DNA from: Beroe forskalii
Lineage: Eukaryota > Ctenophora > Nuda > Beroida > Beroidae
Assembly: GCA_011033025.1 (NCBI GenBank)
Contig: WFMF01000125.1
Location: forward strand, 124,001 to 188,000
Direction: 5' to 3'
Length of the DNA stretch: 64,000 bases
The notes under the pieces: model-generated
Databases searched by the model: none
Told to the model about the DNA's origin: nothing
The model's input: only the letters and a program-made list of their open reading frames with translations
Program-made: the position numbers and the translations under genes
Shown here: piece by piece, positions 19,828 to 60,520 of the stretch
Layout: every line of letters starts with the position of its first letter
Numbering within the stretch: position 1 is the stretch's first letter

Positions 19828-19867
19828 TGACGTCATTATCATAGCTCAAAGTGGGTAGTTCATGACG
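19828..19867 (+). repeat. CRE-flanked dispersed element
   Basis: Starts TGACGTCATTATCA, core tagctcaaagtgggt, ends catgacg. Member of the family described in the findings. Confidence 0.75.
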
Positions 19868-21320
19868 ATTAACTGACTACCTTTTGCCTGTGGGAATCAA
19901 TGTTTGTAGTATAACGTCAGCTTACAGTTCTCGTTACTTGACGGAGTGCTTTATTCAATGAAATGACAGTTCAACCGAAGAGTGAAGAATTTGTGCCATG
20001 AAACCGTACGATAAGTACCTGAAAAGCTTGAAGGCGGGATATGATAGGGAAATGAATTAATTCAACAAATCTCTTCTCTGAGAAATTCTGATTTTCCTTT
20101 AATTGGCGAAAAATGGTCAAAATAATAGGTAAGACATGCGACTCATTTAAGCATCCCCTTACTCCATTTTGAGAATTTGACAGTGTTATTCAATAACGTA
20201 AGTAATTCAATATTTTATTCCAGGCACCTACACTTTCTTATCAATTTTGGTTTTAGAAATGCAATAAAAAGTATAACTTTTTGAGGCACAAAACCTTTGA
20301 AGATGCAGACTTGAATCTTATGGGGAAATTGCATTAAAGTCATGTCTTGATTCTTGAACTTTTACCAAAAATGGCGAGCACTCTTTTTGTGAGTTATCAA
20401 AAAGAAAGATTGCGCCTGCAGTACCCTTTGCGTTGGCGTTGGGTAATGAAAGCACAGCCTTACATACGTATGTAAGTATGTAAGTAGTACCTAAGTGTGA
20501 TACAATTAGGTCGCGTGCTCATGCTCACTCACATAACACAGGCATGAATATCATTATGAGTGTGACGTGGTCATCTTGACAGTGTGAAGCAATACCATGA
20601 TGTCACTCTGGGTCAGCACTGGCCACTCTGTATTGGGCAAGACATACACATAGTGCGTTTTTGTAAGTGTAGCTCGTACGATGAACACTTAATCACAATC
20701 AGGATGATGTCAACTGGTAATTACAAATTAACATTTTGCAAAGTTCAGGTTTCGTAACATGTTTCCATGAGTTCATGTTTCCAGCCGGAATTCAGAGTCC
20801 AAATTATATAAGTACTTGGTGATAATGTACCTAATTACTAGGAACCTGGATTCTCTCTTGAACTGTGACGGTCTGTATTAATATGCAAAGTAGCCTGCTT
20901 ACAGCTCGCTAATCACAATTCACAGCTCACTAGGTTTATCCTAATTAGCTAATTGAAATGCCCGGACAATGGTCAATAAGACCTGGTATATATGTCACTC
21001 TTCTGACCATTTACAGAGTACAGTACAGGCAGTGCAATTCATTACACTCTTAAGTCTCAGAGCTTAAGTCTCACAAAAATTCAACAGTTGTCCACTACTA
21101 CTTAACGGGAGATGGAATGAGAGATCCAGCCAGTCCCCTAGTGACTGGCAGTGTGAAATTACACTCTCATAGTTCACCAGCAGTCAACACACTCAATATT
21201 TCAGAATTTCAGTCTGCGCATTCCCTACATTATATCCATATTACATTGTCTGAACCCCGGCCGACAGATCGTTCCTGTCTCAAGTATGGGTGTGCGGTGC
21301 CCTGAGGATAAATAGGTGGT

Positions 21321-21364
21321 GTGGCATCATCAGCGCTCCTTGTTGAGCTATGATAATGACGTCA
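21321..21364 (-). repeat. CRE-flanked dispersed element
   Basis: On the minus strand starts TGACGTCATTATCA, then tagctcaacaagg, and ends tgatgatgcc. The first 21 bases match the copy at 19828. Confidence 0.75.
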
Positions 21365-21468
21365 CCACCCACCGTTTATAGTTCTAATGCAGGACCTGTG
21401 TAATATAAACGTCGCAGCTGTCATATTACGAAGTCCATGTAATAATATAATGTGCCTGGGAAACGTAC

Positions 21469-21900
21469 GGGGGAGGGGAGAAAGTATGAAGGGTAGACAG
21501 GGCTGTGAGTGGGGGTGGGAGAAAGTGGGGAGCGGGGCAGTGAGTGGGGTGGGAGAAAGTATGAAGGGTAGACAGGGCTGTGAGTGGGGGAGGCAGGGCT
21601 GTGTGTGGGGGTGGGAGAAAGTGGGGAGACGCATTGAGTGGGGTGGGAAAAATGGGAGAAGGTAGGCGGAGATTGGTGGAGAAAGGGGTCGGAAAGAGTT
21701 AAGAGTGAGAGGGCAGGGTGAGACTGTAAGGAACAGTGAGTGTTCCTCATTTCCTCGCAATCGAGTGGAACTGGAAATTAGAGTTTGCGGGAGAAGGAAA
21801 TCTGGTAGTCTGGGATGGCGAGAGGGAGCGAGGGTGAGTTGGTGAGACTGTGAAGTGGGAGGGGGTGGGGAGACTGGAACTGGAAATGGGGCTTTCTGAG
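21469..21900 (+). repeat. Purine-rich, G-run tandem repeat
   Basis: Repeats of agaaagtatgaagggtagac, then agggctgtgagtggggg, with many runs of three to five G on one strand and few pyrimidines. Both G-quadruplex and triplex structures are possible. Open frames here on either strand are low-complexity artefacts. Confidence 0.85.
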
Positions 21901-22562
21901 AAAAGGATGGTACATTTTCAGCCTTCTGGGAGTCCTGTCGTTTGTCAACTTGAGTCGGATTGTCACGAGAAATAGAGAGAGGGGGCAGTCAATGGAAATG
22001 AGAGTAACTGGCAGAAGGGAATCTGGTACATTCTCTCATGGTGTCCTTGACAACCTCTGCTATCTAATGTCAGGATTCTGTGCATATATAGAGACCATGG
22101 GTGGTATGCATAACTAGGGAATCTCTTATGGTTATAAAGGTTTTGCTTTATGCTTAAGGAAAATGCCTTATACATAAGGGCTTTGCCTTATGCCTAAGGC
22201 AAACGCTTTATGTGTAAGGGCAATGCTTTATACGTTTTGTTAGCCAAATCATCACATACCAGGATCTCTCGAATTGTGAAATGCTTTTCTGGTCTGTTTT
22301 CTTATATACTTTCATGAAAAACTTAGTTTATTGAACCAATCTTATCAGGAACATACTTGTGACCCTATTAAAAGCATCCAAAAAGAAGCCCTTAAGTATA
22401 AGGGATTTGCTTTTACCATAAGGCAAAAGCCTTATGGCTGAGGCATTTGCCTTATGATGATGGCAGTTGATTCATATTTAGAGAAAACCATAAAATTACA
22501 GAGAAACTCTAAGACTTTCTGTGTATTTTTATGGTTTTCTCTCTAATTTTTATGGTTCTCTA

Positions 22563-23220
22563 CGAGTTCATAGGGGTCTGTTAAGAGTTCATAGGGGTAT
22601 GTTAAGAATTCATAGGGGTATGTTTAGAGTTCATAGGGGTATCTTTAGAGTTCATAGGGGTCTGTTAAGAGTTCATAGGGGTATGTTAAGAATTCATAGG
22701 GGTAAGGGGTATCTTTAGAGTTCATATAGGTATGCTACGAGTTCATAGGGGTATGTTTAGAGTTCATAGGGGTATCTTTGGAGTTCATAGGGGTATGTTT
22801 AGAGTTCATAGGGGTATGTTTAGAGTTCATATGGGTATGCTACGAGTTCATAGGGGTATGTTTAGAGTTCATAGGGGTATGTTTAGAGTTCATAGGGGTA
22901 TGTTTAGAGTTCAAAGGGGTATGTTTAGAGTTCATAGGGGTATGTTTAGAGTTCATAGGGGTATGTTTAGAGTCCAGAGGGGTATGTTTAAAGTTCATAG
23001 GGGTATGTTTAGAGTTCATAGGGGTATGTTTAGAGTTCATAGGGGTATGTTTAGAGTTCATAGGGGTATGTTTAGAGTTCATAGGGGTATGTTTAGAGTT
23101 CATAGGGGTATGTTTAGAGTTCATAGGGGTATGTTTAGAGTTCATAGGGGTATGTTTAGAGTTCATAGGGGTATGTTTAGAGTTCATAGGGGTATGTTAA
23201 GAGTTCATAGGGGTATGTTA
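22563..23220 (+). repeat. 21-bp minisatellite, copy 2 left array
   Basis: About 30 units of gttcataggggtatgtttag(a), very homogeneous from 22840 onward. Four reading frames on the two strands stay open (repeating VHRGMFR, EFIGVCL and, on minus, MNSKHTP). Confidence 0.95.
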
Positions 23221-23224
23221 TTTG

Positions 23225-23735
23225 AGTGTAATAGGCTTACTTTGGAGTGTCATAGGATTACTTAGGAATGTGATAGGCTTACTTAGGAGTGTGATAGGCT
23301 TACTTAGGAATGTGATAGGCTAACTTAGGAGTGTGATAGGCTTACTTGGGATTGTGATAGGCTAACTTTCGAGTGTGATAGGCTTACTTTGGAGTGCCAT
23401 GAGCTAACTTAGGAGTGTGGTAGGCTTTCTTCGGAGTGTGATAGGCTTACTTTGGAGTGCCATGAGCTAACTTAGGAGTGTGGTAGGCTTTCTTCGGAGT
23501 GTGATAGGCTAACTTAGGAGTGTGATAGGCTTACTTGGGAGTGTGATAGGCTAACTTTGGAGTGTTATGAGTCGGTTGGGGTGGGTTATGAGTTGATTGG
23601 GATGGGTTATGAGTGGAAAGGAGTGGGTTATGAGTTGATTGGGGTGGATTATGAGTGGAAAGTGGTGGGTTATGAGTTGATTTGGGTAATTTATGAGTGG
23701 ATAGGGGTGGGTTATGAGTGGGCAGGACTTCCCAT
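23225..23735 (+). repeat. Diverged 21-bp arrays
   Basis: First gtgataggcttacttaggagt units to about 23565, then gagttgattggggtgggttat units. Both keep the 21-bp period, so they look like successive variants of the same minisatellite. Confidence 0.9.
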
Positions 23736-24465: not shown

Positions 24466-25000
24466 CCCCACTCATAACTCAACTCATAACCCACCCCTAT
24501 CAACTCATAACACACCCCTATCAACTCATAACACACCCCTATCAACTCATAACACACCCCTATCAACTCATAACATACCCCAGTCAACTCATAACACACC
24601 CCTATCAACTCATAACACACCCCTATCAACTCATAACACACCCCTATCAACTCATAACATACCCCAGTCAACTCATAACACACCCCTATCAACTCATAAC
24701 ATACCCCAGTCAACTCATAACACACCCCTATCAACTCATAACACACCCCTATCAACTCATAACATACCCCTATCAACTCATAACATACCCCAGTCAACTC
24801 ATACTCATAACACCCCTATCAACTCATAACACACCCCTATCAACTCATAACATACCCCTATCAACTCATAACACACCCCTATCAACTCATAACATACCCC
24901 AGTCAACTCATAACACACCCCTATCAACTCATAACATACCCCAGTCAACTCATAACATACCCAAATCAACTCATAACACACCCCTATCAACTCTTACAGA
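24466..25000 (-). repeat. 21-bp minisatellite, right inverted array
   Basis: Units of caactcataacacaccccta(t). The complement, gttgataggggtgtgttatga, aligns with the left unit gttcataggggtatgtttaga at most positions. Two variants (cacacccctat and cataccccagt) alternate irregularly. Confidence 0.95.
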
Positions 25001-25175
25001 CATAATTTGAATAATCAAATATGAATTGCACTGTTTCCCTTATACATAAAGCAATTGCCTTAGGCATAAAGCAAAGCCCTTATGGATAAGGAAAATGCCT
25101 TATGCGTAAGGACTTTGCCTTATAAGTTTAGAGTTTCTCTTAAATAAGAGATTCCCTAGTTATGCATACCACCCA

Positions 25176-26700
25176 TTGGGACAGATGGTTTAGCACTATA
25201 ATATGTTCTATGTAGATTGTAGACCTGTCATATTATGCGATGGAAGAATGGAATGTGGTCTTTGGAAGTGGTGTGAATGGGAACCGAATGTGAAAAGTGG
25301 GTGTGGTGAAATTATGTCAATTCGGGGTCTACAATCTTACAATAACTGACATTACAGTATATCAAACATTATTAAGTTTTGTTATTGGTGGGACGGTGGG
25401 TGGTGTAGATTTTGAACATGAAATGTTTTTACATTTAAACGCATAACCTACTTGGACAGGCCGGAGTAAAACTGGGTCATTGAATTGGTGGACTGACAGG
25501 TCTAAAAGGGAGGAACCTAATTTAAACTGCAAGTTGCTGTCGTGTAAGTAGGATGAGCTATTTATATCATGCGTTGAGCAATGGTTCGCCCACGAATTTT
25601 CTACCCCACCCCACTTTTATATTAAATATTACCTAATATTTCCGCCCGGAGGGGCTCTAGCAACTGTCCAATGATGTGCAATTTGGCTGGGAAATTAGGT
25701 GTGGGATTGGCTGATGTCAGAATTCGCTGGTCGTGGAATTATTGAGGTTAAATTATTACCGGATACGTCTTACGTGACTCAATCTCATCTAAAGCCGTGA
25801 GTTTATTGAACTTCATACCAAATTAGGATCTCCCAGTGTCTTCACTGTATAAAGTCCTCCCTCTTACATCGCATTTTAAATTGGTATTTTACTAGATGTA
25901 ACCTACACACATTACATATGCTACAGAAAATACTATAGTGCACATGTAGTGTATTTCATCCATCCTAAAAACGATATAGCGTTAAAATGACGTCATTATC
26001 AGGGCTAAAAGTCACTAATTGATGACGTCCAAGTACCTATCTTCCGCGTCCGGGTTCCGATGTACTGTTTTTATACTCCAGGTTCTGATGATTCGGGCAC
26101 CATACCGTTAAATCAGAACATTGGTGAGATTCCCTGGAACGGAGCTTCGTTGCTGCTCCCGAGGCCGTAGTCTGTAGATTAGCTTGCTAATACTACAGCG
26201 ATGGTGCGTTAAGACTAAGAAGCAACAAGTAGGATGCCAACTTTCTTATGCTCTTGTAGTATAAGAACAACGTGCAACCTAACAGACTAGCGCTGTATCA
26301 GCCATTAGTCTTTCCCTCTTACTGTCAATAGTTCTTTGTGCTATTTGCCGGATGAGAACTAAAAATCCTCCAGATCTACCAGTGAGGTCCCAATCTGTCA
26401 CACTAAAATCAAGTGATATTGGGAATTTTGTCCAGCAGTTTGAAGTAGGGCTTCTTTGCTCCTGCGGAAGCTCTGCCAAAATTTTAAATTTCACCACTCA
26501 AAAACATAGAATTTATTTGAATTAAATATATAATTCATACATGTGTTTATGTAAATTGATATTAGAATTATCTCACAAAACAAATAAACGTAGAAGCACA
26601 CCTTTACAAGGTAATAATAACAAAAGACGACGATACCCCCAATTGATTCAAGACAATAATGGAAGGAGAGCAGGAGGGTCCTGACATTTAGATAATCTAC
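25176..26700. other. No gene recognised
   Basis: Non-coding by inspection apart from the CRE-flanked element at 25988. Confidence 0.5.
25988..26029 (+). repeat. CRE-flanked dispersed element
   Basis: Starts TGACGTCATTATCA, core gggctaaaagtcacta, ends attgatgacgtc. Both CRE ends are well kept. Confidence 0.8.
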
Positions 26701-26704
26701 CACT

Positions 26705-28062: not shown

Positions 28063-28070
28063 TTTCGATT

Positions 28071-30132
28071 AATATGTGCATATTATCAGATAACTTTGAG
28101 CCTCTGAACGCTCGTCTCTCTATACTCTTAAGTCTGAACTTGCCAAGTTGAGAGCTATGACGATGGTTTCCGATCCCAACCGTAAATCAATAAAACGCCC
28201 CTATAGATAGGTGCAGTTTCGTAGAATGAGACACTGTGACGTTTCATTTCTATTATTATAGATTTGCACCGTCTGCGTACCTACGCAGGTATTACGTCTA
28301 TATATTCTAAGATTTAAGAAATGTGTACCAGTATATCAGGTTTTAATGAATTGTCAAGTATTGAGCGGGCACACCCATTCATCCTTTATATTGCGTATCG
28401 ATTATAACCTGCTTTCAGCAGTCTATTATTAGACACTTGATGGAACCATCAATTCTAGAAGGTTTAAGTTATTAAGATAAGTACAAAATTTAGACTTGTA
28501 ATACTGTACTGCTGTACTGAAATATAAATCATGAATGGACCCAACCCTGATCGCTGATACAATAGCTTTATAATTATGGCGGCGACGGGCGAACCTTAAT
28601 ATCATTTTTTAAAGATAACTTACCCGTAAGATCCGGATATTGTCATATGAAATTATTCATTTTGCGCACGAGTATACGGTCAAGTCGCGCGCTGATTGGC
28701 AAGTAAGCGCGCTGAGAATGGACCCGGCCTATGATAATTACTCAACTGTAATTTAAAGTGTAAACTGTAATTACTCAACTGTAATTTAAATTGTAAACTT
28801 GGTCATTGACTGCTCAGGCGAGGCCTCTCTTTGCCTCCTTTCGGTGCAGAAAGCTGTGCAACAGCTGGTGCTATTTATTTTCCGTATATTTTCTATAGAC
28901 ACCGGTCCTATGTTCTAGACACTGGCAGTCATGTGGAAACCAAGTGTTGAGCTTTTAAATGTGTTCACAGATCCGTATCAAATCGGTGATGGATGAATTC
29001 ATAGTTCGATGAATTATCCATTTGAATCAAATTTGTTTCTTCACAACAGACGTAATTTCTGTAAAATTATAGCCTTTTCCACTCCAAATAGTGTTGTAAC
29101 TTTACATTGTAGTAAAGAATTTCTAAGGAGGCTCTAAATGTCCATTTTATTACTAATGGGTTCCTGCAAGGAACAATTTATAAAACAGTTAAAATGTTGA
29201 ACCTCCAGGCATAAAACTCAGAAAACTATCTGACTAGATTACTGAGTAGCCAACAAAATTGCTTGTGCACGTTGAAAAGAGCTGAACTTTTTATGAAATC
29301 TGCCAGAGAATTTTAATGATTATTGATTCCACTATATTTACAGTTCTTTGATATGTTTGGATAGTCAGATTACAGTATTGATTTTTTGACCAGCATCCAA
29401 TATCAATTGGCACCAGTCATGGCAGTGGACCCTGACTCAAATATTCATCGAGGTAACTTATCTATTAACAGCAATGTATTTATTGACACCAGTATCCATT
29501 GACACCGGTGTACAGTGTACACTGTACTTTGACACGTATATTCATTGACACCAATGTCTATTGTCACCAGTGTAGACTTTATAATTAATTGAACCATTGT
29601 ACTACCCTGACTGACACCCCGAAGGCCGAAACTTATTCGTTTTAAAGACTCAAATTCTTTAATATCGCACTGTAACATCCTACACAGCTACACACACTAG
29701 ACAATCAGTTGCAACCCTATATGTCTCTGAATCATATTCCTTAATTATTGAAACTAACTAACTAAGTGGATTACTACTTGGTGGATCGGCGTCATTAAAA
29801 ATGACAGTTCCCCAGGCTTCCCGTTTTAGTGCTCTAAATGCCCCTCGTACTCTTATCCCCGTCATCATTTACCATTTGCGCTTTGATAATGACGTCATTT
29901 GAATTGCCTTTAATTTGTGTCTGCGATTCGATATATCCAGATAATTCCAGAACACCGGTAAACTGTTTACTGAAAGATGTCACTTAAAGAACCGTATGAT
30001 TTCCCTCACACTTGACAAAGTTTCAATCCTTATAAGCTTATACATCATACATGCAGCGGAGGGAGTTAATAAAATAGGGGACTGACTTGATATCTCTGGA
30101 TTAAGCAGACAGAGTTACCAACCCCTTTGAGA
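28071..30132. other. No gene recognised; small repeats
   Basis: Holds a 33-bp tandem duplication at 28736-28800 (aattactcaactgtaattta). It also holds a degenerate attgacaccagt repeat at 29470-29575 with the perfect 18-bp palindrome gtacagtgtacactgtac, and a CRE-flanked element at 29861. Confidence 0.5.
29861..29897 (-). repeat. CRE-flanked dispersed element
   Basis: Minus strand: TGACGTCATTATCA, core aagcgcaaatggtaa, end atgatgac. Confidence 0.75.
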
Positions 30133-34657: not shown

Positions 34658-34699
34658 TGATGTAAGTTATTTACCATTCAAAGCCATGATCATGATGTC
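34658..34699 (-). repeat. CRE-flanked dispersed element
   Basis: Minus strand: TGACATCATGATCATGGC, then tttgaatggtaaat, end aacttacatcac. It lies about 30 bases before the candidate exon at 34729. Confidence 0.7.
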
Positions 34700-34728
34700 A
34701 TATTTTATCGTCTTGTGCTCGTTGCAGC

Positions 34729-35278: not shown

Positions 35279-35319
35279 TGTCGTCATTATGATTCTTTAG
35301 GATGGTCAAATGATCACCT
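35279..35319 (+). repeat. CRE-flanked dispersed element
   Basis: Reads GTGTCGTCATTATGATTC, then tttaggatggtcaa, then atgatcacctc. One end is degraded. Confidence 0.6.
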
Positions 35320-35356
35320 CAAACGCCTGATTCTCGTGTCTAGCTACAATTCAGGC

Positions 35357-35999: not shown

Positions 36000-36210
36000 T
36001 TTAGGCGACTTTTTCATTGTGATTTTCTTTCGTTTTGCGGCTTAAAAGTTGAAACTATTTTGTTTTTGTTGTTTTCGGACGATCATTGCATTTGCTGTCA
36101 AGTGTCACCGACCTGGGACCGCAACCCAATTTCAAAATTCCTAAACTTCGTGTTTTATTGAATTACTGAAAAGACATACCTTATTGGTTTTTAGCCCCTT
36201 TTTAGGCTAG

Positions 36211-36430
36211 TGTCCCATATAACTCCTGGCTCTTCATTATCTATGATAATGACGTCACTCAGAAAAATATAGTTAAGCGCACCTAGCGCTTCAAGGACTA
36301 GGGTTAGGGTCACGATTAGGGTCAGTATTTGTTAAGGTTAGGGTTTTGGTTAGGGTCATGGTTGGGTTTAGGATACCGAAAAATTGACCTTTAGGTCTGT
36401 GACGTCACTCAGCCAGAGTTATATGGGACA
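36211..36430. mobile_element. Short MITE with internal TTAGGG-like repeats
   Basis: Terminal repeats TGTCCCATATAACTC and its complement lie at both ends. TGACGTCACTC lies inside each end, and degenerate ggttagggt repeats fill the middle. A second copy starts at 36474 (tgtcccatataattcc) and is cut at about 36648 by the GC-rich block. Both copies follow a cttttt(g)aggct(a/g)g sequence, so they look tandemly duplicated. Confidence 0.85.
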
Positions 36431-36473
36431 CATACCCTTTTTGAGGCTGGTGTCCCATATACAATATAGGCTA

Positions 36474-36648
36474 GTGTCCCATATAATTCCACTACCAGAG
36501 CCTTCATTATCTATGATGATGACGTCACTCGGAAAAATAAAGTTAAGCGCATCTAGCGCTTTAAGTTCAAGGGTTAGGGTCAGGATTAGGGTTAGGATTA
36601 AGGCTAGGGTTTTGGTTAGAGCAATAATTAGGTTAAGGATACAAATTG
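36474..36648 (+). mobile_element. Second, truncated copy of the TTAGGG-containing MITE
   Basis: Parallels 36211 onward (tctatgatgatgacgtcact, agttaagcgcatctagcgct, ggttagggt). It loses its right terminus at the start of the GC-rich block. Confidence 0.8.
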
Positions 36649-39092: not shown

Positions 39093-40300
39093 GCTTTTCA
39101 GTTTGTACTATTTTTTGCTTTTCCTACAACTACTGAGACACGGTTGATTGCTGATCATGATTAGCACTTCCGTAATATACATACAAAACTTTGTTAGAAT
39201 GTGTCGCCATAATCGCTCCATTTAATTCGATTCAATTCCAACCAAGTGCAGCATTTCAGCATGATTAGAATTCAAAGTTGTGGTTTATGAGATGGTAGCT
39301 GATGATAAAGAAAACTTGCCAACATTGAAGATGGTGTTACTTATGACGCCCATATTCCAAGATGTCGAAATCTGAGAATGGATCTAAAATTTTCTCCTGT
39401 GACACAAACAGTAATCACGTACGTACACGGGCGAAATCTTAACTTTGTAACTTCAGAATGATCCTAATTTCCCGATGTCGCGACACCTGTGTTCAATACT
39501 CAATAGATTAAATACCGTGACCCACCAAATGAAAGGCAGATGAATGTAATGTCATTATAATGGTGCAAAGTGATCATTTCATTACGTCACATAGTTCAAT
39601 ACTTTGTCTTTGAGAATTAATCCTTTCGTAATGTTCAACGCTCACTCTCATGGAACGGTTTAAACGCACCTATGTAAGCTACCACATGAAATAAGGTTTA
39701 AGTTGCTTAAACTATGTGGTACAGTAGACAAAATAGGGCACGTAAGTCAATAAGAACTCACATTTCATTACAGTAATCATACGCTAACTTCGCGTGAGGA
39801 CTATGGGGGCCTCACATAATAATTACTGAACCATCGTCTGCTGCTAAATTATGTGAATTTATGCTTACATTTGCATAAATGTAATAAATCACTGGTATTC
39901 AAGCTAAATATATTAGCTGCATTATAGTCTCCTTCTCAATTATCAGGTTGTGCCTTCCAGCGCATAATCTGACTTATAGTGTATACTGTATGACTTGGTG
40001 TATGATTATATTGTTTCTGCCTTCGTTATACACAATATGCCAATTATATTAAAGATGCTAGATGTCTTTGTCACAGAATATTACATAACCACAAAACAAT
40101 GGAATTATATATTATTTTCATAATATTATAATCATGTTAATTCTATCGACCCAGATTTACGATTAAAATAAAGTTTTTATATTTTACTATACTCGAGTAA
40201 TTTACTATAATATATTACAGCTGTTAATGTGTAGCATGCAGAGTGTGTAACGTTGGAACTGCAGAGAAACTCCGCTTTACTTGTAGATTAAGCTAATTGG

Positions 40301-41003: not shown

Positions 41004-41035
<32 letters not shown>

Positions 41036-41274: not shown

Positions 41275-41315
41275 TGACGGCATTGCCAGGGTATACAATG
41301 CTGAGTTGGTGACGT
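41275..41315 (+). repeat. CRE-flanked dispersed element
   Basis: TGACGGCATTGCCAGGG, core tatacaatgctgagt, end tggtgacgt. Confidence 0.7.
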
Positions 41316-41893
41316 TTCAGCCCGTATTTTGGTTGAGATAAAGCTAGATAATGAGCTGAAGAAGTCGTGTATGTCTGTGTTTCCAGAAACAGCTGAAACA
41401 CTATTGGAGATTCAACAGTTGATAAAGATCCAGTGATACAAACAATAACGTGGACCGTATATAATATCCACTAATTGGTATTCTGCCTTTTGAGCGCTCT
41501 ACCGAAGAAATTATGGCATTTGAAACCGTTTTTAATAAGATCAAAATTGAAATTTAGACTACTGACCATCAGTAATTACTGCACACACCATAAGTGCACA
41601 CCATTCGTACCAAAGTACTTTAACATACCAAGAATAGTTTACTAGTCTAGCTAGGGAATGCAGACATATTCAGCCTGAGAATATTATTTTGGGAAGTTGG
41701 CAATATGAGTCTGAGATTTTCATTTCTTCAGAAAAATGCAGTTGAAGATAATTCTGGTGTGACTTTAATTTGACTCGCGAGTTAAATATCCAAATTGTTC
41801 AACACATGAACATTCTATGCGCTCAGCAGCCTAATCAAGGCTCACTTGTGAGGTATCCGAATAGGAAACATTAATTGGGAATAAGCGGTTAGA

Positions 41894-41935
41894 GTGACGT
41901 TGTCATAAGACTTCAGAATGGCGTGCTGATGACAT
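41894..41935 (+). repeat. CRE-flanked dispersed element
   Basis: GTGACGTTGTCATAAG, core acttcagaatggcgtg, end ctgatgacatc. Confidence 0.75.
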
Positions 41936-42259
41936 CTACCCGTCCTTAATTCGCACGTGACCATTATACCAAATAACAAATTATTGGGGAATCCTAAGAA
42001 TTATATATTCAATAATATGTGTGGACCATATCAATATTACTCAATATAATACCCCTGATTCAGTGAAGTCAAATCCTCATAACTACATCAGGGCTGACCA
42101 ATAATTCTCCAATTAATTCCGTGAAATCTGAGCCACGGGTCACGCATAGAAACCTACATACGAAATACTGAGGAGATTAATTAGCCGGGACAACATGTGT
42201 TATATATTATACTTGCAGGGGTCTGAGGATCTCAGGGGTGTCGGGGTAGGCGAGGGGAA

Positions 42260-42298
42260 GACGACAATTAGCAACGTCAAGCTATGATGATGACGTCA
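42260..42298 (-). repeat. CRE-flanked dispersed element
   Basis: Minus strand: TGACGTCATCATCATAGCTT, then gacgttgctaat, then tgtcgtc. Confidence 0.75.
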
Positions 42299-43313
42299 TA
42301 TTAAACCAATGTGTGGATGAGGTTGTAGTGAGCGTTAGACCCGATCATAATGAGTTATCACATTGTATAGGTAGTGTTATCGTAAATAGACAAATAGTAT
42401 TGGGCGTGTTGTCAGGGGAATTATTCACTGGTATGAGGCAGGGAAAACACACCAATCTGAGTGTGAGATAAATCCGTCCTTAACCACCCAAAAAAGCTTA
42501 TAAGCAACGACAAATTATATATAAAACTGTTCCTTGATCCTCTTTTCACTTCAGAGGATTATATTAATGTACCAGTGTTACTTCTTATCAATATATCTGC
42601 TATTTAGCATAAGTAAATTGCTACTTAAGTCCGCTTAAGTTGTAACTTAGAAACGTGACTTGGGCGCACTAAACGGTTTGGTAGATTAAGGTGAGAAACG
42701 CTGGGAGGCTGGGTGTGCCAGGACTCTGTGAGAATACGAGAATAGACTGTGCCTTATATTGCCTGATTTTAGGTGGTTTTTGTCCATGTAGGCTGCAATT
42801 TCTACCAAAAGGGATTAGCCGGGCCTTGGAATAGAACATGTTGATGCCAGGCTATAACGTATCTTCTTTACAAGTCTGAAACTGTATCCATGATGCAAGG
42901 ATTCATTGAAACAGTAATATCATTCTCAAATGGGTGTTAAGTAGTTTGAAATGTATAACAGTGACGTACAACTACTCTTATATTACGTATGATAATTGAT
43001 ATCACATATTGTACTTAGATATTATACTTAGATATCATATTTATATATTTCATGAAATAGCAATGGTGGACTGCTTCCAGAGTTAGAAATGGATAAATTT
43101 CAATATCGACTAAGCGATCGAAATGCAACTTCTAGAGTTCTAAAGAGTAGCATTAGGAAAGGGTTATAGAGTCACAGTTGCCAAACTTTGAAAAACCATC
43201 CCATGGCATGATTTCAGGGTCGAAAGAAGGGTATTTCGAAGGTAAATTTTTAGGTACCCTTTTTCAAAGTCACGAACTTTGGTACCTTTTGTTAGGTTAA
43301 GGCCTGATAGTAC

Positions 43314-43361
43314 ACGTCATCAGCCAATGCTACATAGCAGTATAGCACTATGATAATGACG
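43314..43361 (-). repeat. CRE-flanked dispersed element, long variant
   Basis: Minus strand: CCGTCATTATCATAGTGC, a longer middle (tatactgctatgtagcattg), end gctgatgacgtg. Confidence 0.65.
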
Positions 43362-44195
43362 GTATCTGAATACCACCTATTTCTCGTGTGGGTATTCATG
43401 AGCCGGTTGTGGGAATAATATGATATGCAAGTACAGAGCTACACCACATGAGTACATGAAATACAATTGCAAGGTACAAAAGGTACACAATTTGTACATT
43501 GTACACAGGTACATGGGTCATAGAATAGTGGTATGTTGGTATGTGTGCACATGGTAGGTTGAAAGCAACACGTTGAATAGTAGGTTAAAAGTACCAGTAG
43601 AAAAATTCCAGGTTAAGCAAAAGACGGCTTAACCAAAATAACCGGAATTTTGTCGCGCATTCTCAGCTCATTCCCAACCATTCCCAAACCAGCCATTTGG
43701 TAAAGTTGCTCATTGACATTATTAAACAGCTTTTGTTTGAAAATATATGCATTTATGCCCGCGTCGTGCGTAACTATGGCCGCTATACTGCTATACTGGA
43801 GTATACTGCTATGCAGTTGCACGAGCATAATTGATCGCGCGCGCGATCATTATCAATAATCATGCTGTTTCAAATGCGTAACTGATTGATATTTTTTTTT
43901 GAAGCGCTAAAAAGTACAATTATTCGTCGGAAGACGGAATAGTAGGAACATTTGAAACCGTCGATGCAGTAGGTAATACTTAGATATGAGAGCTCGTATG
44001 GTGGTACTTTGTATGTGGTCGGCATTAAATGGGCCGGGAGTGCACTGTGCTGTGACTTAGAAGGACCAAAGGGGCCTTCTAGTACAATAAAATTTGTGGT
44101 AAAAGTTCCAAAAGTCAATGGGTGCATTTGGGAGTATGAAAGTATGAATGCGTCTTTGTGTCATATGTGTGCGTGCTATTGTGTGCATGTGTGCG

Positions 44196-44386: not shown

Positions 44387-44388
<2 letters not shown>

Positions 44389-44796: not shown

Positions 44797-44825
<29 letters not shown>

Positions 44826-48100: not shown

Positions 48101-51100
48101 TATTTTCAAACGTCTTGAAACATTTTTGAGGCTGAAAAGCCTGTCTGGACGAATACTTGAACATCATATATAATACAATACGTAACATGAATAGCTGAAC
48201 TTTATTTACAGTAACGGTAGTACCAGTAATTTGCTAGCTGTTACGTAACACATCCAGGACATGATTCGTTAATGATATCTGAATTCCACATCATTCATTT
48301 GAACTAACTCAGTGACTAAACATTTTTTGACCATCAATGGATTATCAAGATTGGGTGCACAGCTCGCTGGGGCTTCATTAGCTTATAAGCTACCCTAAGG
48401 CATTACCATCTAAGCATCTAAGAGAATGTCATAAGAAATGAAGTCATCGCTTACATGAAGTCATCGCTCATAAATTCTGATGGATATGAAAGTGACTCTG
48501 CCGTAGCACTGTACATTTCACCCTGTGGAAGTGAAATACAATTCCCCTGGCCGGTGTCTTCAGAGCATGATTTCAATGTGGGACACATAATAGCCACACA
48601 CACTCCACAGCAGACTACAGCATAATGCATATCATGACGCATATTTAACACCCTACAAGGGTTCAGGGGATCAACTCCCTCCTACTGCATTAACCCCCTA
48701 TTAAAGCAGACTTCATTTTGCAATGTGATGTCAAGCATAGGGATGCGTTATTTCATACCCACCGAGACGTTGAGACAGAATCCAAGAAGAAAATAGCCAA
48801 GTTCATACATCACAACCACTTAAAAACTTTCAGTCACTTGCTAAATAACTTTTCTTCTCAAAGTGGCGCTGAGCCTCAAGTCTTTCGAATACATGGCACG
48901 CCATATCATTGAAAAGTCTGCATTAAAAACCAGGGCATGGCTTCTTTTTGAAGTAATTTATCACATTACAGTATCTTAAATACGCGAAACAAATGAAAGA
49001 CACAAAATGTACTATTATATTTCCCCATAAAAAGACTGAATTCCGAAACCCTACAAAACATCCGTTTGGAACATGATCTCACTAACACAGACCTCTATAA
49101 ACCTGCCACCGGGCTGTAAGAGACTGTTATAACCACTCTAGAGAATAAATATCATATCGATGAAGGAGCTGTGCTTTCATGGACCTGTACAATTTTATGC
49201 AAGGGAAACATAATATAGGTACAACTTATCACGAATTATGACACAAATTAGTTCCACCGTATAATTTAGAATATAATTTTCTATATTTCACTGATTTTAC
49301 AAGTTCTCTCTACACGCCCTCCTGTACACTCAAACAGCCCATTCACAGCTAGAAACATTTAGGTACACTTGAAACAGCCCATACAGCCACAGTAATGAGG
49401 CATTAACACTCGAGTAAGAAGTGAGACATTTGAAACGTGAGTTTGAACGCATCTTTGTGTGTGGACTCTCAATTTGTTACATCGCAGGTTATTAAGCCAT
49501 TTTCAAGAGAAAATTCTAATGAGTAAGCGGTTTCAAAAAGTGGATTTTTATGAGGATATCTTACTCGCACTGAAACTTGTACGTTAAAAATTCGATGCCA
49601 TCCGTTTTTCCGAATGCCATACTGATTTCTGACCCACGGCAATGACAGTGAAAGGCTAAGTTTTGAGATCTTCTTAAAACCACCCATCACTGGTTGGAGG
49701 CCTCCTGTTCTGTGTACCACCTGTACAAATAAACCATATGCTCTATAACATTCTGTGGCAAGGAGACACTTAGTGAAACATTACTCCTAGTGTACCAGTA
49801 AGGGTGCTAATCGATCGGTAATGATAAGGCTCGTGTCACGAGACACAGCTCAGATCACGTGACAACATTTGACACGACTCCTTTGCTCCCCCGCTCCACA
49901 CTCAGTTAATCTAATGGCACATTATTATCATTGTATCTTATGTAAATTAACGAGGGACCTCTTTCCCAAAAAAGTGGCTCAATTATTCCATATAAGGGCA
50001 AATCAAGGTCCTGTAGGCGAGTAAAGTGGTAGACATTTAAATAATTGCGCTAATTTCCACAACTGAGTGGCACACACGTGGCATGCATCTGACGCACACC
50101 TGGTGGCTGTACGAGTGTAGATGTTTGTTTGCTTTCTTGTTTGTTTGTTCAGATGTTTGTATGTTTGTGTAGATGTCTCTATGTTGGTACATATGTTTGT
50201 CTGCTTAGATGTTTGCTTGTGTAGGTGCCGGTATTTTCGTTTATTAAATATGATGTCTTTTGTTAATGTCAATCTTTGAATGTTTGTGTCATTACAATAT
50301 TCACAGTGTCGCTTCTCACTCTTCATCTACCTCCCCATTCTACTCCTTTACAAACCCTTGCTCACCTGCCCAATAAATCACTCATGTGTAACGTGTAGCA
50401 CACTTGTAAAGTGCACAAACCGTGAAGCCAGCCCTCTACATCGCTACTACCACTCAATAAGTTACTACTACTTACTAAGTTACTACTGCTAATCATCATG
50501 ACAGCCATTGAACACTGGATGTGTTACACTTGATGTGCTAAATTGGGGGTCATTCACGACGGTAAAAGACAGTGAGTGTTTGAGTAACCATGGTGGATTG
50601 ATGTCGTCTAATCGCTAATTCAAACGAGAAAACCAATCAATCGCACTCAACGATAGACAAAAACGGTAGAAAGTTCTGAAAAATTTTTATAATAACTAAT
50701 TATTTATCCATTTCAAATTTCGTTGATAAAGCACTTCAATAATCATTTATTAACTCTTGCTTCACTTTATTTTATCATACATCAGTATATCTTTCAAGCA
50801 TAATGATTGATCATCAAATTTTGAAACAATTTCATTTGTTCAACTTGGCACTGAAACTGCAAGAGCAGATAATAACTTGAGCGTATCCAGTATGTTGCAT
50901 AGTTTGGAGTTGAAGATCTATTACTCTATTATAGCAATATGCGAAACGCAAGCGATAAAATATTTTAAGTAACGTCTTGGTTTAGAAAGGCATTAATAAG
51001 ATGACTCTCAACTGACGAGTTTAAGGCAAGTAAATTTTGAAGGAGCGCAAGGTAAAATGTCATATACCAAATATAGAATTCTACACGGTCTCTGTGTTAA

Positions 51101-52172: not shown

Positions 52173-52213
52173 TGACGTCATTACCAAGAGTTAGAATGGT
52201 GTGTAACTACTAG
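52173..52213 (+). repeat. CRE-flanked dispersed element
   Basis: TGACGTCATTACCA, core agagttagaatggtgtg, far end eroded (taactactag). Confidence 0.75.
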
Positions 52214-52353
52214 TGCATAGGATGTAGCTTCATTGACTGCTATGTAAGTGTGTCAACAGCATCTTATTTCAGCTTTTCAAGGGGGCAAACGGGATGATTC
52301 TAGTACATTTGTCCGACACCTGAAATTAGCTATTCGTACAGATTACTGTGTCG

Positions 52354-53245: not shown

Positions 53246-53253
53246 CTGTGTCG

Positions 53254-53746: not shown

Positions 53747-53918
53747 CTATGGCTTGCTGAAGTTGGATGCGCCTTTTTCAAAGCTTTTGGACAAATCTTT
53801 AACCCTCTTGTACAACTTCGCCATCTGATCACAGTTATATAAGGCGTTTTTGAATTTGGAATATGATAATTCCTTTGTCATAGCCTTTGGTAATTTGGTT
53901 TTAAAGCCCCGGTGGAGC
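53747..53918 (-). CDS. Candidate terminal exon, unknown gene
   Basis: On the minus strand, after an acceptor-like ccatataag, a frame encodes LHRGFKTKLPKAMTKELS, then YSKFKNALYNCDQMAKLYKR, then VKDLSKSFEKGASNFSKP and a TAG stop. The composition is protein-like and the open frame has no low complexity. I do not recognise the family. Upstream exons on the minus strand were not established; frames at 54364-54653 are ambiguous. Confidence 0.3.
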
Positions 53919-56900
53919 CTTATATGGGCATCAGGTTACCCGCCCTCCGGTGAGGAGGATGTGGTCACGTGACAAACGTATATCCTGCTAAGAAGTGATC
54001 AAATGGCAAACAGGAACCTTGCACAAAAAACTTGAATGAGGTTGCAACGAATTTCCTGCGGTTGGAGGTAAAGAAGGTTCTGATAAGAGTTTCTAGGGCC
54101 GTTCACAGGATTTTCAGAATTTAAATGTAGACAACAAAAGTCGGCCATCCTGTTAGAGCTGAAATTCTTTGTAGAATTTGATCTTAGAATTAGAAATTAT
54201 GTGCATTCAATGCTTTGGATCCATCTAATCTTGACTTGGGTCAACAAACTTGCTGATGAGTATGGATTATAGGGAACTGAACAGGCAGAAGACTATCCTT
54301 TGCCTTCCCTTTATGATAAGTTCTATTTATTACTTATAGCCCAAAAAATGATACTGACACAAGTCATTTTATAAACCAATATAAAGCTTTTGACTTTATC
54401 ATCCTTGAAATCTTCCACTTCTTGCCCATCCAATCTTTCTGTCCAACTTGTGATGCTCGGAAATCCGGAGTTCCGGTTGGCCCAGCCTTGCAGTTGTCAA
54501 TCTCTCCGTTCTGTCTTTTCCACCAGCTGATATGAGAACCTCTTCGCAATTGAAAACAGACAAGGAAGGACCTTGCATCTGCAAGGTAACCGCTGATGAT
54601 TCACACTTTGTCTCTTCCCTATTCCCCGATCGTTGGATTATCAAAGTCGACATTCAGTATTTATTTTATGTTTGACAATACCGATACTCTAAACATTTAT
54701 AGATAAAATTTTGAATTGCTTAATTTTCTAAATCGTGGCCTTCAGGTTGAGAATATGTGCTGTGCTAAATGTGGCATCTTTGAGCACACTCAAAGATGGT
54801 CAAAGTGGTCTTTGTGCTTTTGTCCATACTCAAACATTACATGAATTATCTATAATGTTAAAGAAGGTCATTTTATGATTATTGAAAGAAAAGCCTTGTG
54901 AATGCAGTCCAATTAATAGAAATCTAACCTAATCAAAATTTCAACATGACTTGTGTAACTCAATAAATTTAACACAATTAAATTTAATTTCCTTATTAAA
55001 ATCACAAATTATAATCAAGACTAATCTACTGCACAATATAATTCACTTAATTGAAATAATTAGAAGCTAAGCTCTACACCATGATTAATTTCATAGCATC
55101 TTAGGAGGAAGGTAATTTAATGAAAATAAAGTGTTCCTTTTGTTCTTTCAATTAAATTTACAGTGCGAGAATCCTAGCTAAGCACGCAACTCAACATAAG
55201 AAGTTTAAATAATATGTAAGTACTAATAATAATAGCATCCAATGTAAAAGGTAATTAAAATCATTTGAGGCTCTTATTATTTTGTAAGTGTATAGTAATT
55301 AACATTAATAAGGAGTAAGGACAGTATACAAAAAAGATCGTCGAAAGTAAGTCCTTATCACTGCTAAGAATGAGAATATTGTCTAAACGTGACGGATCTG
55401 AATCTTTCTGATTGGCTTGAAGTCAGAACACTGCCCCTTTCACCCGCTGGGACTCTACGAAGGAAAATGTTGAGATAGTATTCCCGGGATAAAAAGCTGT
55501 CTTGGGACTTCACTAGCACATAAGATCGCCCTCCTTACCCCTTTTTTCACGTGTTGCTCTTGACTGACGAGCGCACAAACAGGTATCTTGTAGTTGCTAC
55601 TTTTTGGTTGTTACCAAATAACAAACCGCCTATTGCTGATGAGTAGCCGCTCTAGTGCAGTTTCTAGTTCTCTAGGGTTAGCATCAAGTATCAAACTCGG
55701 GCATCCCTGTTTCAAAATATCAATTCTATTAAATTTGAAACCCTCCCAAGACTCTTCTATATTTACAGATTATCACTAATAATTGTGCAGTGTGCTTTAT
55801 ACATTATTATCTTTACCGCCCTAATTAGTAACCTACTCTGATAATATAAAAGAAATGATAATTATCAGTATTATATCCAATATAATTCAAATTAAAATAA
55901 TTAGCACAGTAAATTACGTGCTAGTTTTTATCAACTGTTTAAGAGTGGGACCACTAATTAATTATTTCCTGATAAGATGGGGCTCCACATTGGCAATTGA
56001 ACGGTCCAAACACGTGATTGAACTGATGATAATAGAGTGTCTGGGATACAAGTAATCTTAAAATTTGGTGGGCAGAATATTTGCTGACGAACTGATAATA
56101 ATGAAAGTATGGGATATAGGAAATCTTGAAATATGGGAAGCAGAACAAAATGACTCAGAATAAGACAGGCGAATTTCACTTTAAATTTTGGCTGTCCTAC
56201 GCCTTGCTTTCTATGAAATATCAAAGTAAGGCAGTAAATCAAACTTAACCCTGACAGTAATGAAAACGGGCAGGAAAAAGCCCATGGAAAATCTCTCACG
56301 TGTGAACAGCCATGGTTAAAGAACGTGAACTTGAACGTGAACTTATGATCCTTTAAATTCCTTGCATATGTTCCCTCTCCGTACCTCTTTAAACTTTCTT
56401 GATATAATCTGTGACAGGGTTTCCATAAATTGTAATTTGGGTGCTTTGCTCCCATGAAAGTGTTGGAAGTAAGAATTAAAAAAAGCTAAAGCACGTTATC
56501 ATCCAACCAAGGATGAACAATTATGAATGGTTATTCAAAATAACGGACTATTACATGAGTTTCCAGGAAATTGGAGATAAAATTGTGAACTGTGGTTGAT
56601 GTATGCCAGATATTATGAGTTTTGCGTCGAAGCTGAGTATACCTCGGGAAGATTGAATACATCAAATAATTATCTGTTTCAATTGATACAGAAGCGAATT
56701 GCTGAGTTCTTTAGAGAACAAGATTTGCGAAGGTTTTCTGATCAGGTTGCACGAGCATTTCATTCCAAACAAGAGACTGACACCATGAGTGAGTAAGGAG
56801 TGGGTGACTTATTTCGGCTCAATTTCCTTCCTGAGTTCTTGGGATTAACTTGTCTGGGAACAGTCGGATACTTATGATTTTCTAGAAATAAGAGGTTTCG

Positions 56901-58343
56901 CACGATTGGGAAATGTCAGATGTGGTCAGTGGCGGCGGATGAGTTCCCTATTACTCTATTAGGGCTATTAATTACGTTCTACCGAATGAAGACCCTCGTA
57001 AATCATATAATTACAGGTTCTTTGATCCCGTCGAAGGAAATTTCACTTACACTACCCATTATCCCTTATACTATATAATCATAGTATCATACATAATTAT
57101 ATCTTAATCGATTCCTATACAATGTACATTTTACAGTATCCTGTGTATGAATATACACTACATTAATAAATACATCACAGCGTTCCCTTTGATTTCTAAA
57201 CAGATAGATTTCCTCAAACAGACAACTCAGTGAGGAGCGTAATGTGGTGGACGCTAACATACAGCTCAAATATATGAAAGTCTGAATCCCAGACTTGAAT
57301 ACACACACAGACATACACACACAATACAAACAGTACATGCATTATATTCAGATAATAAGTAAATCATAGACCGGCCGTCTACTACACACACACACGGACA
57401 CAGTTTATTATATGTGATGCATACACCCAGTGTAATTTAGGCACTCATGGTCCCTAGACACACACACTCACACACAAATTCCCCACATATTATACAAGAC
57501 TGAAACCCAATCCTGGGTAATTATGTACGGCTACCAACTTGCTGACAACCTCGCCCCCCTCCCATTGGTTGAGGGAGGTCACGTGACGCTCAGGAACGCA
57601 CCCCATTGGCTACACGGTTAGTAATGATGTTTGGATACAGTGATTATATAACTATGTAATGAGTTCTATAGACTTATTAGATAATTGCCGCGCTGCACTG
57701 GAAGCCAAAACACCCCATGCCTAGCCTCTCTCTCTTAGCTAGACAACAGAGGGATGGAGAGACTGCCCGGAGAGAGAGCTAGTAGGTTGCGTAGATGGGG
57801 TAGTGTTTAATGGTAATGGGGCCGGGGATTTGAAGGGATGGTAGTCCCTTCATCCCTTCCAAGTTCCAACCCAAGGTCAACAAATCCCGGGAAAAAAGTC
57901 AGACGTCCTCAATCCGCCATGAAAAAACAAAGGTCATGGCGACATACTAGACCGCAGTTAATGGTTCGTAGCCTGTCCTCTAATCATTACACATGCACAC
58001 CCTTGTAACACATCATGTGGGGTGTTGCTAATCTAATTCCTGTTAAGTGGCAGACTGTAGTGATTATCAGTGGTATAATATAGAGCCTGATTATTATCAT
58101 GAGAGCAGGGCAGTGTTAACTGTAATATCACCATACAGTCTAATTAAGATGGGGGGTCCTACTGAGACACAGAGAGAAGCTGTGAGGGAGTGTTAAGTGT
58201 CTTATGTTACAGTTAATTAACCAGCCTGATGAGATGAATTGAGCCGGGGTCCTGGGAAACAGCTGCTGTGTGCTGATACACAAACTGTAAAGCTCTATCA
58301 TCACCACCACTGTTACAGGGTGGAGCGGGATAATAGGTGAGAG
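53919..58343. other. No confident gene
   Basis: AT-rich. Apart from the candidate exon at 56610-56788, only short frames without domains and small CA-rich microsatellites (57300-57325, 57385-57395) are seen. Confidence 0.45.
56610..56788 (+). CDS. Candidate internal exon, unknown gene
   Basis: Between a tatgccag acceptor and a strong GTGAGT donor at 56789. It encodes YYEFCVEAEYTSGRLNTS, then FQLIQKRIAEFFREQDLRR, then FSDQVARAFHSKQETDTM. This is an amphipathic, helix-like sequence with normal composition. No family recognised. It might belong to the gene carrying the Phactr exons or to another gene. Confidence 0.35.
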
Positions 58344-58386
58344 TGACGTCATCATCAGGGTTTACAATGGTGTGTTGATTACGTCA
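58344..58386 (+). repeat. CRE-flanked dispersed element, best-preserved copy
   Basis: TGACGTCATCATCAGGG, core tttacaatggtgtg, end ttgattacgtca. Both ends form an imperfect inverted repeat. Confidence 0.85.
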
Positions 58387-58547
58387 TATCGACTAATCAT
58401 TATGGTCGATCACAGGGTGATGGCCGATGGGGCAACATATACTGAATTATGAGCACGTTAGTCTGAGCAATTACATACGAGGCTGGAATTGAAACTCCTA
58501 ATAATCTTCTTTATTCAATATTCGTTATCACTTAACTATTCATTTGA

Positions 58548-58913
58548 TCGCGTGAAAATTCACATAATCACCTGATCATTCACTTGACAAGTCACTCAAA
58601 AATTGGTCATTCAATTAATCACGAGACTTGATCACCTGGCCATTCATTCAATACTTGACCATTCACTCAACACTTGACCATTCAATTATTCACTTGAACA
58701 TTCACTTGATCACCTGAACATTTACTCAACACTTGACCATTCAAGTAACCACTTGAACATTCACTTGATCACCTGACCATTCACTCAACACGTCTTGACC
58801 ATTCACATTAACTCATTCGTGTGACCAAATTAACTCAATCAAGCAACTATTCACTTCATCGCTTGACCACGTGACCATTCACTTCATCACTTGACAATTC
58901 ACTTGACTATCCA
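58548..58913 (+). repeat. Degenerate short tandem repeat
   Basis: Many variants of cacttga(c/t)cattcact with occasional longer period (gatcacctgaccattcact recurring). It begins about 160 bases after the best CRE-flanked copy. Confidence 0.85.
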
Positions 58914-60480
58914 CACACATGTTGGTGACGTTACTCTTGATATTGTCTGTTAATTTAGAACGCACCGTCGCACCCACAGTTATATAAACAGTTTGATGTG
59001 AGCGGTAAAGTCCTTTTACATCAACTTCTGTATTGATTATCTTGAAATTGAGGCAGATGGTCATAAGTGTCAGAAAGAAAGTTAAATAACCAATGCTAGA
59101 AGAAAGGGAGGGTCTTCATATTATGTTCATTCAGTAATTACGAGTAGTATGGACAATTCAATATTCTGCTATAAATGCAAAAACTGTCAGCTAAAAACAA
59201 TGCACTAATGAGGAATGAGGATGAATATTTTTCATGTCCGTTCAGGATGCATTTAATGCACGCTTAGTTTGACTTGTGTGACTAGTTATTGACCGAAATT
59301 TTGAACTGCTTCGAAGCATAATATTTTCCAGAAATATTAATTATATTCGCCACCGCAACAACCCTCAATGTCACAATTATATAACAGTCTCCTAAGTCAC
59401 TAAACCTTAATTAACGTATAGACACAACGCGAATGATCAATTAAGATGCCTTTGTCTATTTCATCTTGCGATCGTGATCTGCATATCACACCAATTTCCG
59501 AGTGTCTGTTTCGTGATAATTTGAAATAATTCGGTCTAGCACATAGTATTGTAAGGGGACGAACATGTCATTGCGCTATTTCACTAATTTGAAATTTTAA
59601 CGTTTTTATTATTTCAAAAGCAATGAAGTCTGGTCTCGATTGTTTAATTGGAGATACACAAAACTATGGCGTAAATTAGCGGAAACCGTGTCTTAAAATC
59701 GTCATGACATTGACAAGTCAGTGGGTGAGTTTACGGCCAACTCGTGCGCTGATTGGGCGATGTCAAATGGGCCTGTGGGTAAGCTAATATACGCCGTCAC
59801 TGGGCTGGGTAATGAAATTAACAATAATCACTCCGGATTCGCACGGGGTGCCTAATATTATGACTGTTTGTCATTAGTTAATTATTGTATATTATTTTTC
59901 TGAATTGGCACATATGACGCCTCAATAATAGTTTCCCATGAGTACTAATAGGTGATTGAGGATGACACCCATCTCATGGCTTAGAGTGGTAAATTGGTGT
60001 GAATTAAAACTGCCTATCTTACAACACCATTAAACTACCACGCACACCCCTGGAAACCTTAAAGTTGCCTTGGTGAGTTACAGAAGGCACCAGTCCCTTG
60101 TACTATTTCAACTATCACTGATACTGCAATTCCAAGGAACTTATATTATGATAACTTATAATATTTTCTGGACTGAATTAATTCTAAAGCAGTTACTTTG
60201 TCCACGCACAGTAATAGACATAATATCGTAGGACCGTCTCCCTTAATGTAAACTATTAAATGCCCGAATATGGAATAATTGCGGAAAGATTTAGCATGAT
60301 AATACGATATTAACATCCTCACACAGTATATATTAAGTTTTATTGTCAGAGCTAGCGGCCGGGAGGGGAGCAGCCTCTCAGACATCGAGTGATATACCTA
60401 TATTAATAACACTCCCGCCGGACAGGCCTGGCTCAGGCAGTGAACAGTTGGAGGTAGCCTAGTTCAGGTAGATGCTCTTA

Positions 60481-60520
60481 AGTCATTAACACACCATTGT
60501 AAGCCATGATAGTGAGATCA
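60481..60520 (-). repeat. CRE-flanked dispersed element
   Basis: Minus strand: TGATCTCACTATCATGGC, core ttacaatggtgtg, end ttaatgact. The core is identical to the copy at 58344. Confidence 0.8.

Follow-up and report, generated by a model that had tools for sequence, protein, structure and literature searches.

A 64,000-nucleotide stretch of the Beroe forskalii genome (GenBank assembly GCA_011033025.1, contig WFMF01000125.1, forward-strand positions 124,001 to 188,000; C165:124001-188000 in our numbering, and called the window throughout) raises the question of why one short sequence, in which two palindromic arms enclose a core, recurs on both of its strands. This sequence, referred to here as the module, was followed in the window and across the assembly (216,145,372 bases in 1,134 contigs). 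The answer that we favour, with a probability of roughly 0.72, is that the recurrent segments represent the central portion of a non-autonomous DNA transposon family resembling miniature inverted-repeat transposable elements (MITEs), most copies of which are old.

The module is 43 base pairs (bp) in length and consists of TGACGTCATYATCA, a core of approximately 17 bp and TTGATGACGTCA. When the window was scanned with a gapped fit of the 43-bp consensus and rows on both strands were merged into places, 20 rows representing 17 distinct places reached a score of 26 or more, compared with a mean of 0.33 (maximum 1) in 15 Markov shuffles; at a score of 30 or more there were 13 rows (12 places), and none in the shuffles. 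The palindrome TGACGTCA occurs 12 times in the window (shuffle mean 0.83, maximum 4). In alignment, the window copies have arms and core in common and their flanks weakly share AGGT..GAG at the left and ACCTAYCT at the right. A profile built from the left side only converged on 24 sites, including a few where one palindrome is counted again on the opposite strand. A first-pass annotation, made from the letters alone, had described short ordered segments on both strands, and the 17 places bear this out. The 11 positions that it named all score at least 18 and nine score at least 26, but two of them, 50570 (24) and 59962 (18), are within noise when taken alone; the copy that it placed at 20561 is present but fits better on the minus strand, at 20563-20605.

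The module is abundant genome-wide, where all repeat counts are lower bounds and the reversed pattern served as control. The exact left arm TGACGTCATTATCA is found at least 7,719 times (control 3), or at least 17,705 times with up to one mismatch (control 92). Left arm, no more than 30 bases and right arm occur in this order at least 568 times (control 0), TTGATGACGTCACNCCGCCTA occurs at least 154 times (control 0) and TGACGTCA alone is present at least 30,002 times, compared with 7,048 for the reversed word. Chance copy number, which the first-pass annotation had proposed as a refutation of its own idea, fails on the count of exact left arms, and the alignable core that it described is confirmed by the 568 ordered arm pairs, between which the core sequence recurs.

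An unselected sample of 20 stretches of 10 kilobases (kb) each (L013-L032; three contigs, 200 kb) contains 23 hits with a score of 26 or more on both strands, 12 of them at 36 or more, and none in shuffles. These hits are confined to seven of the 20 stretches, with 20 of the 23 in four. Their density suggests a genome total of roughly 13,000 (score of 36 or more) to 25,000 copies (26 or more), with a wide error as copies cluster. Clustering is also seen among exact left arms on one contig, C1, where 78 places (neighbours merged) have a variance-to-mean ratio of 2.13 in 50-kb bins; random placement gave at most 1.95 in 5,000 trials. In the window and sample together (264 kb), every one of the nine dispersed 10-mers with the strongest over-representation falls within the module. 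CGTCATTATC tops the dispersed 10-mers (14 places, 0.40 expected), ATGACGTCAT is found at 9 places (0.24 expected), and 21 of the 35 TGACGTCA words are inside called copies or no more than 20 bp from them. The two-arm pattern had no match in viral contigs, and the 21-base left-half pattern had four single matches in bacterial genomes, which we regard as chance.

The anatomy of the module was read from three sets of copies, none of them randomly drawn: 48 rows (47 distinct places) with both arms, comprising L005-L012 and 40 of the 100 listed genome matches; 37 exact left arms that were chosen with the right half ignored and lie in 32 stretches of contig C1; and, for the right end, 40 of the 100 listed matches. 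Core and right arm exceed the 99.9% level of the null after 29 of the 37 left arms, and among the remainder are at least two different repeats with the same left arm (L074/L100 and L089). The right side often extends as CACCGCCTATTT, the left extension being weaker, and the 175 copies that were sorted form subfamilies with linked core and flank sequences. The length of 40-45 bp first given for the element is too short: conservation reaches further, through CACCGCCTATTT at the right and to approximately 101 bp in one subfamily. Among 23 ungapped copies from the unselected sample, mean identity to the module consensus is 0.739, and the commonest base has an average share of approximately 0.88 over the left 14 bp, 0.66 over the core positions and 0.74 over the right arm. 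The right palindrome is more decayed than the left. None of the 6 double changes in these 23 copies is compensatory between the arms. A structured RNA was rejected on this result and on the lack of any Rfam match at the gathering threshold in the window.

Some copies have a longer structure, in which AAATAGGCGG at the left is mirrored by CCGCCTATTT at the right. AGAAATAGGCGG, followed after 4-10 bases by the left arm, has at least 356 exact matches genome-wide (control 0). Twenty of the 100 listed matches, every one with the spacer GTAGGA, were taken as a hairpin set; they have in common ACGCCGCGCACGAGAAATAGGCGGGTAGGA-TGACGTCATTATCAT...GTTGATGACGTTG-AACCGCCTATTTCTCGTGCGCGGCGT. The hairpin element is approximately 101 bp overall, with the module inside and the outer inverted repeats ACGCCGCGCACGAGAAATAGGCGG / CCGCCTATTTCTCGTGCGCGGCGT. 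Conservation stops at TA on both sides: at the left, T is present in 14 of the 20 copies, A in 16 and both in 12; at the right, T and A are each present in 15 of 18 (two copies could not be aligned). The right halves of the 20 copies have a mean identity of 0.855 to their own consensus, compared with 0.739 for the module, and the hairpin subfamily is therefore probably younger. A search for TA duplications, advised by the first-pass annotation, gives TA as the consensus at both ends of this subfamily, a candidate for duplication rather than proof of it.

Traces of the outer repeats are found in other copies as well. In a set of older copies (18 of 155 excluded as hairpin-like, 45 retained), the 11 positions to the right of CCGCCTAT have a CpG frequency of 8.5%, compared with 2.6% further out, and a GC content of 53.5%, compared with 41.6%. 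A TA excess did appear in 50 copies with some hairpin-like ones still included. The flanks of 20 window copies, as a group, fit the outer repeats above random window sites (P = 2.8e-4 at the left, 2.5e-3 at the right). We infer that the older and window copies have one architecture, in which the CpG-dense ends were lost first.

The module also occurs in tandem. Exact left arms spaced 18-24 bases apart make up at least 641 adjacent units genome-wide (control 0), and the period is 35 bp in 78 of the 100 listed adjacent-unit matches. Across 13 arrays picked from these matches (45 units), two units of the same array differ on average at 1.67 of 21 positions, and two units of different arrays at 4.94; after shuffling of the array labels the within-array value was 4.68 (lowest 3.46 in 2,000). 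Because units resemble their own array more than other arrays, arrays have formed in place many times. The inverted arms are at the same time 8-bp direct repeats 35 bp apart, since TGACGTCA is its own reverse complement, and slippage or unequal exchange between the TGACGTCA arms could convert single copies to arrays in place.

The fullest form of the element, taken from the younger subfamily, measures approximately 101 bp between TAs and reads ACGCCGCGCACGAGAAATAGGCGG, spacer, TGACGTCATTATCA, core, TTGATGACGT(C/T)(A/G), CCGCCTATTTCTCGTGCGCGGCGT. Such an element would be copied by a transposase supplied from elsewhere and dispersed by transposition; its CpG-dense outer repeats would mostly have decayed in old copies, with the 43-bp centre remaining. 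This reading builds directly on copy number, the order of the parts, the hairpin subfamily with its TA-bounded conservation and the repeated formation of arrays. A "tiny ancient transposon" was among the first suggestions made for this sequence, and it is supported by dispersed copies, by subfamilies and by a younger subfamily whose inverted repeats are long and whose ends are sharp. The other two suggestions, an enhancer or insulator module and an origin-like element, are neither supported nor contradicted by these results. The pairing of bZIP sites about 30 bp apart, then called unusual, follows from the inverted-repeat structure, and a bZIP explanation is unneeded; the putative link of the module to CREB/ATF factors comes from a single 8-bp word.

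The family compares well with MITEs, which are short (less than 600 bp) and non-coding: 43-55 bp are recognisable in old copies and approximately 101 bp in the young subfamily. Terminal inverted repeats are present in the young subfamily, with traces only in older and window copies, and copy number is high, with subfamilies. MITEs with TA ends are of the Stowaway or Tc1-mariner type. Like these, the element is short and non-coding, with inverted repeats, a consensus TA at both ends, many copies and subfamilies; unlike them, its repeats begin ACGCCG and its centre rather than its ends is best kept. The structural features of a MITE are present in one subfamily.

Several observations weigh against a transposon origin. 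The better-kept left arm could mean constraint instead of plain decay. In the 45 non-hairpin copies, a TA excess at the expected distance is unclear (11.1% vs 8.4%). A single flank reaches an uncorrected P of 0.05 or less in only nine of the 20 window copies and both flanks do so in none; the two best window cores (58344 and 60478) are without a significant flank. The TAs at both ends of the hairpin subfamily may belong to the repeats themselves, and only 12 of 20 copies have the complete TA at the left end. Two of 23 hairpin copies have direct repeats of 9 bp or more (0.75 expected; one is of 16 bp, in L171), as do nine of 137 mixed copies (3.2 expected), among them repeats of 14 bp (L164), 10 bp (L156) and 9 bp (L101). 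Long target duplications were rejected as a feature of the family, as these are single cases without a general excess. The long direct repeats that flank L171, L164, L156 and L101 are in some cases next to a truncated end, which is not what a simple TA insertion would leave.

Alternatively, selection may maintain the module in the host as a regulatory element, whether enhancer, insulator or chromatin-loop anchor, in which two palindromes of bZIP type lie 35 bp apart; a transposon may have spread it first, with co-option afterwards. We consider this unlikely. It would account for a left arm better kept than the remainder in the 23 sample copies, for the clustering of exact left arms on C1 beyond the random maximum, and for an excess of TATA-like words 60-105 bp downstream, of which there are 20 in 4,736 positions in 115 copies (about 4.5 expected) and, outside the young subfamily, 21 in 5,803 positions in 139 copies (about 5.4 expected). 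This excess could reflect either a promoter signal or the TA at the end of the element; it sits near the TA end of the young subfamily, so it may be that end. Element-rich sample stretches are without long non-repetitive open frames, although several element-free stretches are likewise, and the lack of compensatory change between the arms also counts against regulatory selection. A parallel in favour is given by Kim et al. 2025 (PMC12221973), who report that thousands of Mnemiopsis chromatin loops anchor on one motif bound by CTEP1/CTEP2. This motif, GC-rich with two CpGs, is at most Mnemiopsis loop anchors; a similar motif is present in Hormiphora, and DNA transposons are common at loop promoters.

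A bolder form of the same idea, somewhat more doubtful still, likens the family, in a ctenophore, to loop-anchor or enhancer modules that derive from transposons: it would have supplied most of the cAMP response element (CRE) palindromes of this genome, and its well-kept centre would now be bound as an architectural or bZIP site, which CpG methylation might switch and which would be clustered along chromosomes. Like the module, the CTEP1/CTEP2 motif is frequent in ctenophores, where loop promoters often have DNA transposon insertions; it is set apart by its description as GC-rich with two CpGs. TGACGTCACACCGCC contains two CpGs, and may or may not be that motif. The same paper (PMC12221973) describes placozoan Mutator repeats that hold a loop motif; there too a transposon inverted repeat carries a recurrent motif, in a different phylum and superfamily. 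No GC-rich 10-mer with two CpGs is found at more than five places in the 264 kb, however, and AATGGGCGTGG competes for the role; the counterpart reading is weakened because there is a competing GC-rich dispersed motif in the same DNA. AATGGGCGTGG is dispersed in the 264 kb as AATGGGCGTG (9 places, 0.36 expected) and GACCACGCCC (6 places, 0.14 expected), and possibly represents another motif or repeat.

Two further explanations are much less probable than either. One is that each copy is a promoter element for a short transcript at its own locus, like the promoters of small nuclear RNA (snRNA) genes or of nematode PIWI-interacting RNAs (piRNAs). The TATA-like excess downstream in the orientation of the element and the clustering of copies are what such a promoter would give, but no conserved start signal is found downstream in 115 copies. 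Upstream of seven U6 and 11 U2 copies the best module fit is 16, below the hit threshold of 22, and an snRNA promoter element was rejected on these 18 stretches; the U2 copies have a different upstream block in common, near AAACGCAAGGAAATATTTTC. By eye, the U2 upstream stretches (L114-L124) share this block and a second near ATATACTCTC, a candidate snRNA promoter element. The other, equally improbable, is a minisatellite that spreads single units through recombination or circle re-insertion at TGACGTCA. That palindrome is indeed common to the 35-bp arrays and the single copies; however, the arrays are more alike internally than mutually, and so seem to derive from single copies, many of which have flanking parts that are missing in array units (CACCGCCTATTT). 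That TGACGTCA recurs merely by chance where the DNA is AT-rich, as two listed copies in the noise range might suggest, is refuted by 568, 154, 7,719 and 356 exact matches against controls of 0, 0, 3 and 0.

Within the window, the best copy of the module lies at 58344..58386 (plus strand; score 66), with the left flank AATAGGTGAGAG and neither flank significant alone. It is followed by a copy at 60478..60520 (minus; 58) with an exact GCTTACAATGGTGTG core and no trace of an outer repeat, one at 19828..19871 (plus; 52) and one at 21322..21364 (minus; 52), whose right flank CACCACCTATTT retains the outer repeat (P = 0.003; this and the following flank values are uncorrected). Three copies score 38: 41275..41319 (plus), 25988..26031 (plus; right flank ACCTATCTTCCGCG, P = 0.026) and 29856..29897 (minus). 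The left flank of 41895..41938 (plus; 36) fits the outer repeat (P = 0.001). Among the copies that score 34, 52173..52217 (plus) has a decayed right arm and a left flank with P = 0.036, while the outer repeat is retained in the right flanks ACGCCTGATTCTCGTGTCTAGC of 35279..35321 (plus; P = 0.003) and CACCACCTCCTTTTTCGCGC of 34658..34700 (minus; P = 0.005). A copy at 42256..42298 (minus) scores 32. The first-pass annotation had overlooked those at 21322-21364, 29856-29897 and 42256-42298 on the minus strand and those at 41275 and 35279 on the plus strand.

Weak copies are found at 9140..9180 (plus), 20563..20605 (minus) and 42962..43004 (minus), each with a score of 28, and at 39547..39589 (plus; 26). 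The copy at 43320..43364 (minus) has a weak core (24) and a clear outer repeat, CACGAGAAATAGGTGG, at the left (P = 0.001). Left traces of the outer repeat are also present at 9280..9322 (minus; score 24, P = 0.006) and at 59963..60007 (plus; P = 0.006), where the core is very weak (18) and in the noise range alone, as is the very weak copy at 50567..50610 (plus; 24).

A further left arm, TGACGTCATCATCATAG at 36484..36527 (minus), lies within a different, tandemly duplicated repeat (second copy at 36220-36257; the same repeat is in L089). A second family with the same left arm is marked by TTAGGG-like tracts and the edges GAGTGACGTCA and TGACGTCATTATCATAGATAATGAAG; it is found at window positions 36190-36640, at L018:6934 and 7102, and in L089. 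Pairs of TGACGTCA exactly 22 bp apart, at C1 positions 5458, 159386, 266903, 274347 and 326039, perhaps belong to yet another family.

Exons in the window resemble COG6, a histidine phosphatase (PGAM5) and a papain-crystallin-trefoil protein. Among named proteins, the closest to the PGAM5-like one is from Bolinopsis microptera (61%), four unnamed proteins scoring higher (best 70%); the closest to the papain-crystallin-trefoil protease is from Mnemiopsis leidyi (45%), with one unnamed protein at 51%. Both named relatives are ctenophore. A large inverted duplication at 498-8113, with arms of approximately 1.6-2.7 kb that are 97-99% alike, flanks the COG6-like and papain-crystallin-trefoil exons. 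At 11909-13027, AGGGATCGTTCACATATTACGTAATCA ends face each other approximately 1.1 kb apart and represent another DNA transposon family; inverted pairs of these ends are also found in L013 (1.2 kb apart) and in L024 and L031 (approximately 0.15 kb apart). Tandem arrays of 21 bp (GAGTTCATAGGGGTATGTTTA and relatives) occupy 13373-14448, 22090-23219 and 24479-25127; their flanking block is duplicated 8.6-8.7 kb apart, and a related array is inverted. The palindrome GTCACGTGAC is also dispersed (6 places, 0.15 expected), at window positions 53964 and 57578 and in L019, L023 and L027.

The exact arm sequences were not found in the literature collection searched, and nothing relevant emerged there on ctenophore palindromes, MITEs, core promoters or repeats, as judged from titles and the opening of abstracts; within that collection, the family was not found in print. 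MITEs have spread E2F sites in Brassica. Like such MITEs, the element is short and multiplies the consensus site of one factor; unlike them, it carries a full CRE palindrome, as identified by its letters, in the subterminal arms of an animal element. It is also like transposon-born satellite DNA, in which tandem arrays are built from parts of a dispersed element, and differs in that palindromic arms, which serve as inverted and as direct repeats together, define the unit of the array. The family offers a clean case of how an inverted repeat with a palindromic arm can double as a direct repeat and give rise to tandem arrays again and again. Because the element accounts for 21 of the 35 CRE palindromes and the nine top 10-mers in 264 kb, studies of CREB/ATF sites, of peaks in assays for transposase-accessible chromatin (ATAC) or of loop motifs in this lineage need to distinguish sites under selection from copies of the transposon. 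If the centre of the element proves to be bound, the family would allow regulation built by transposons to be tested in an animal branch that arose early.

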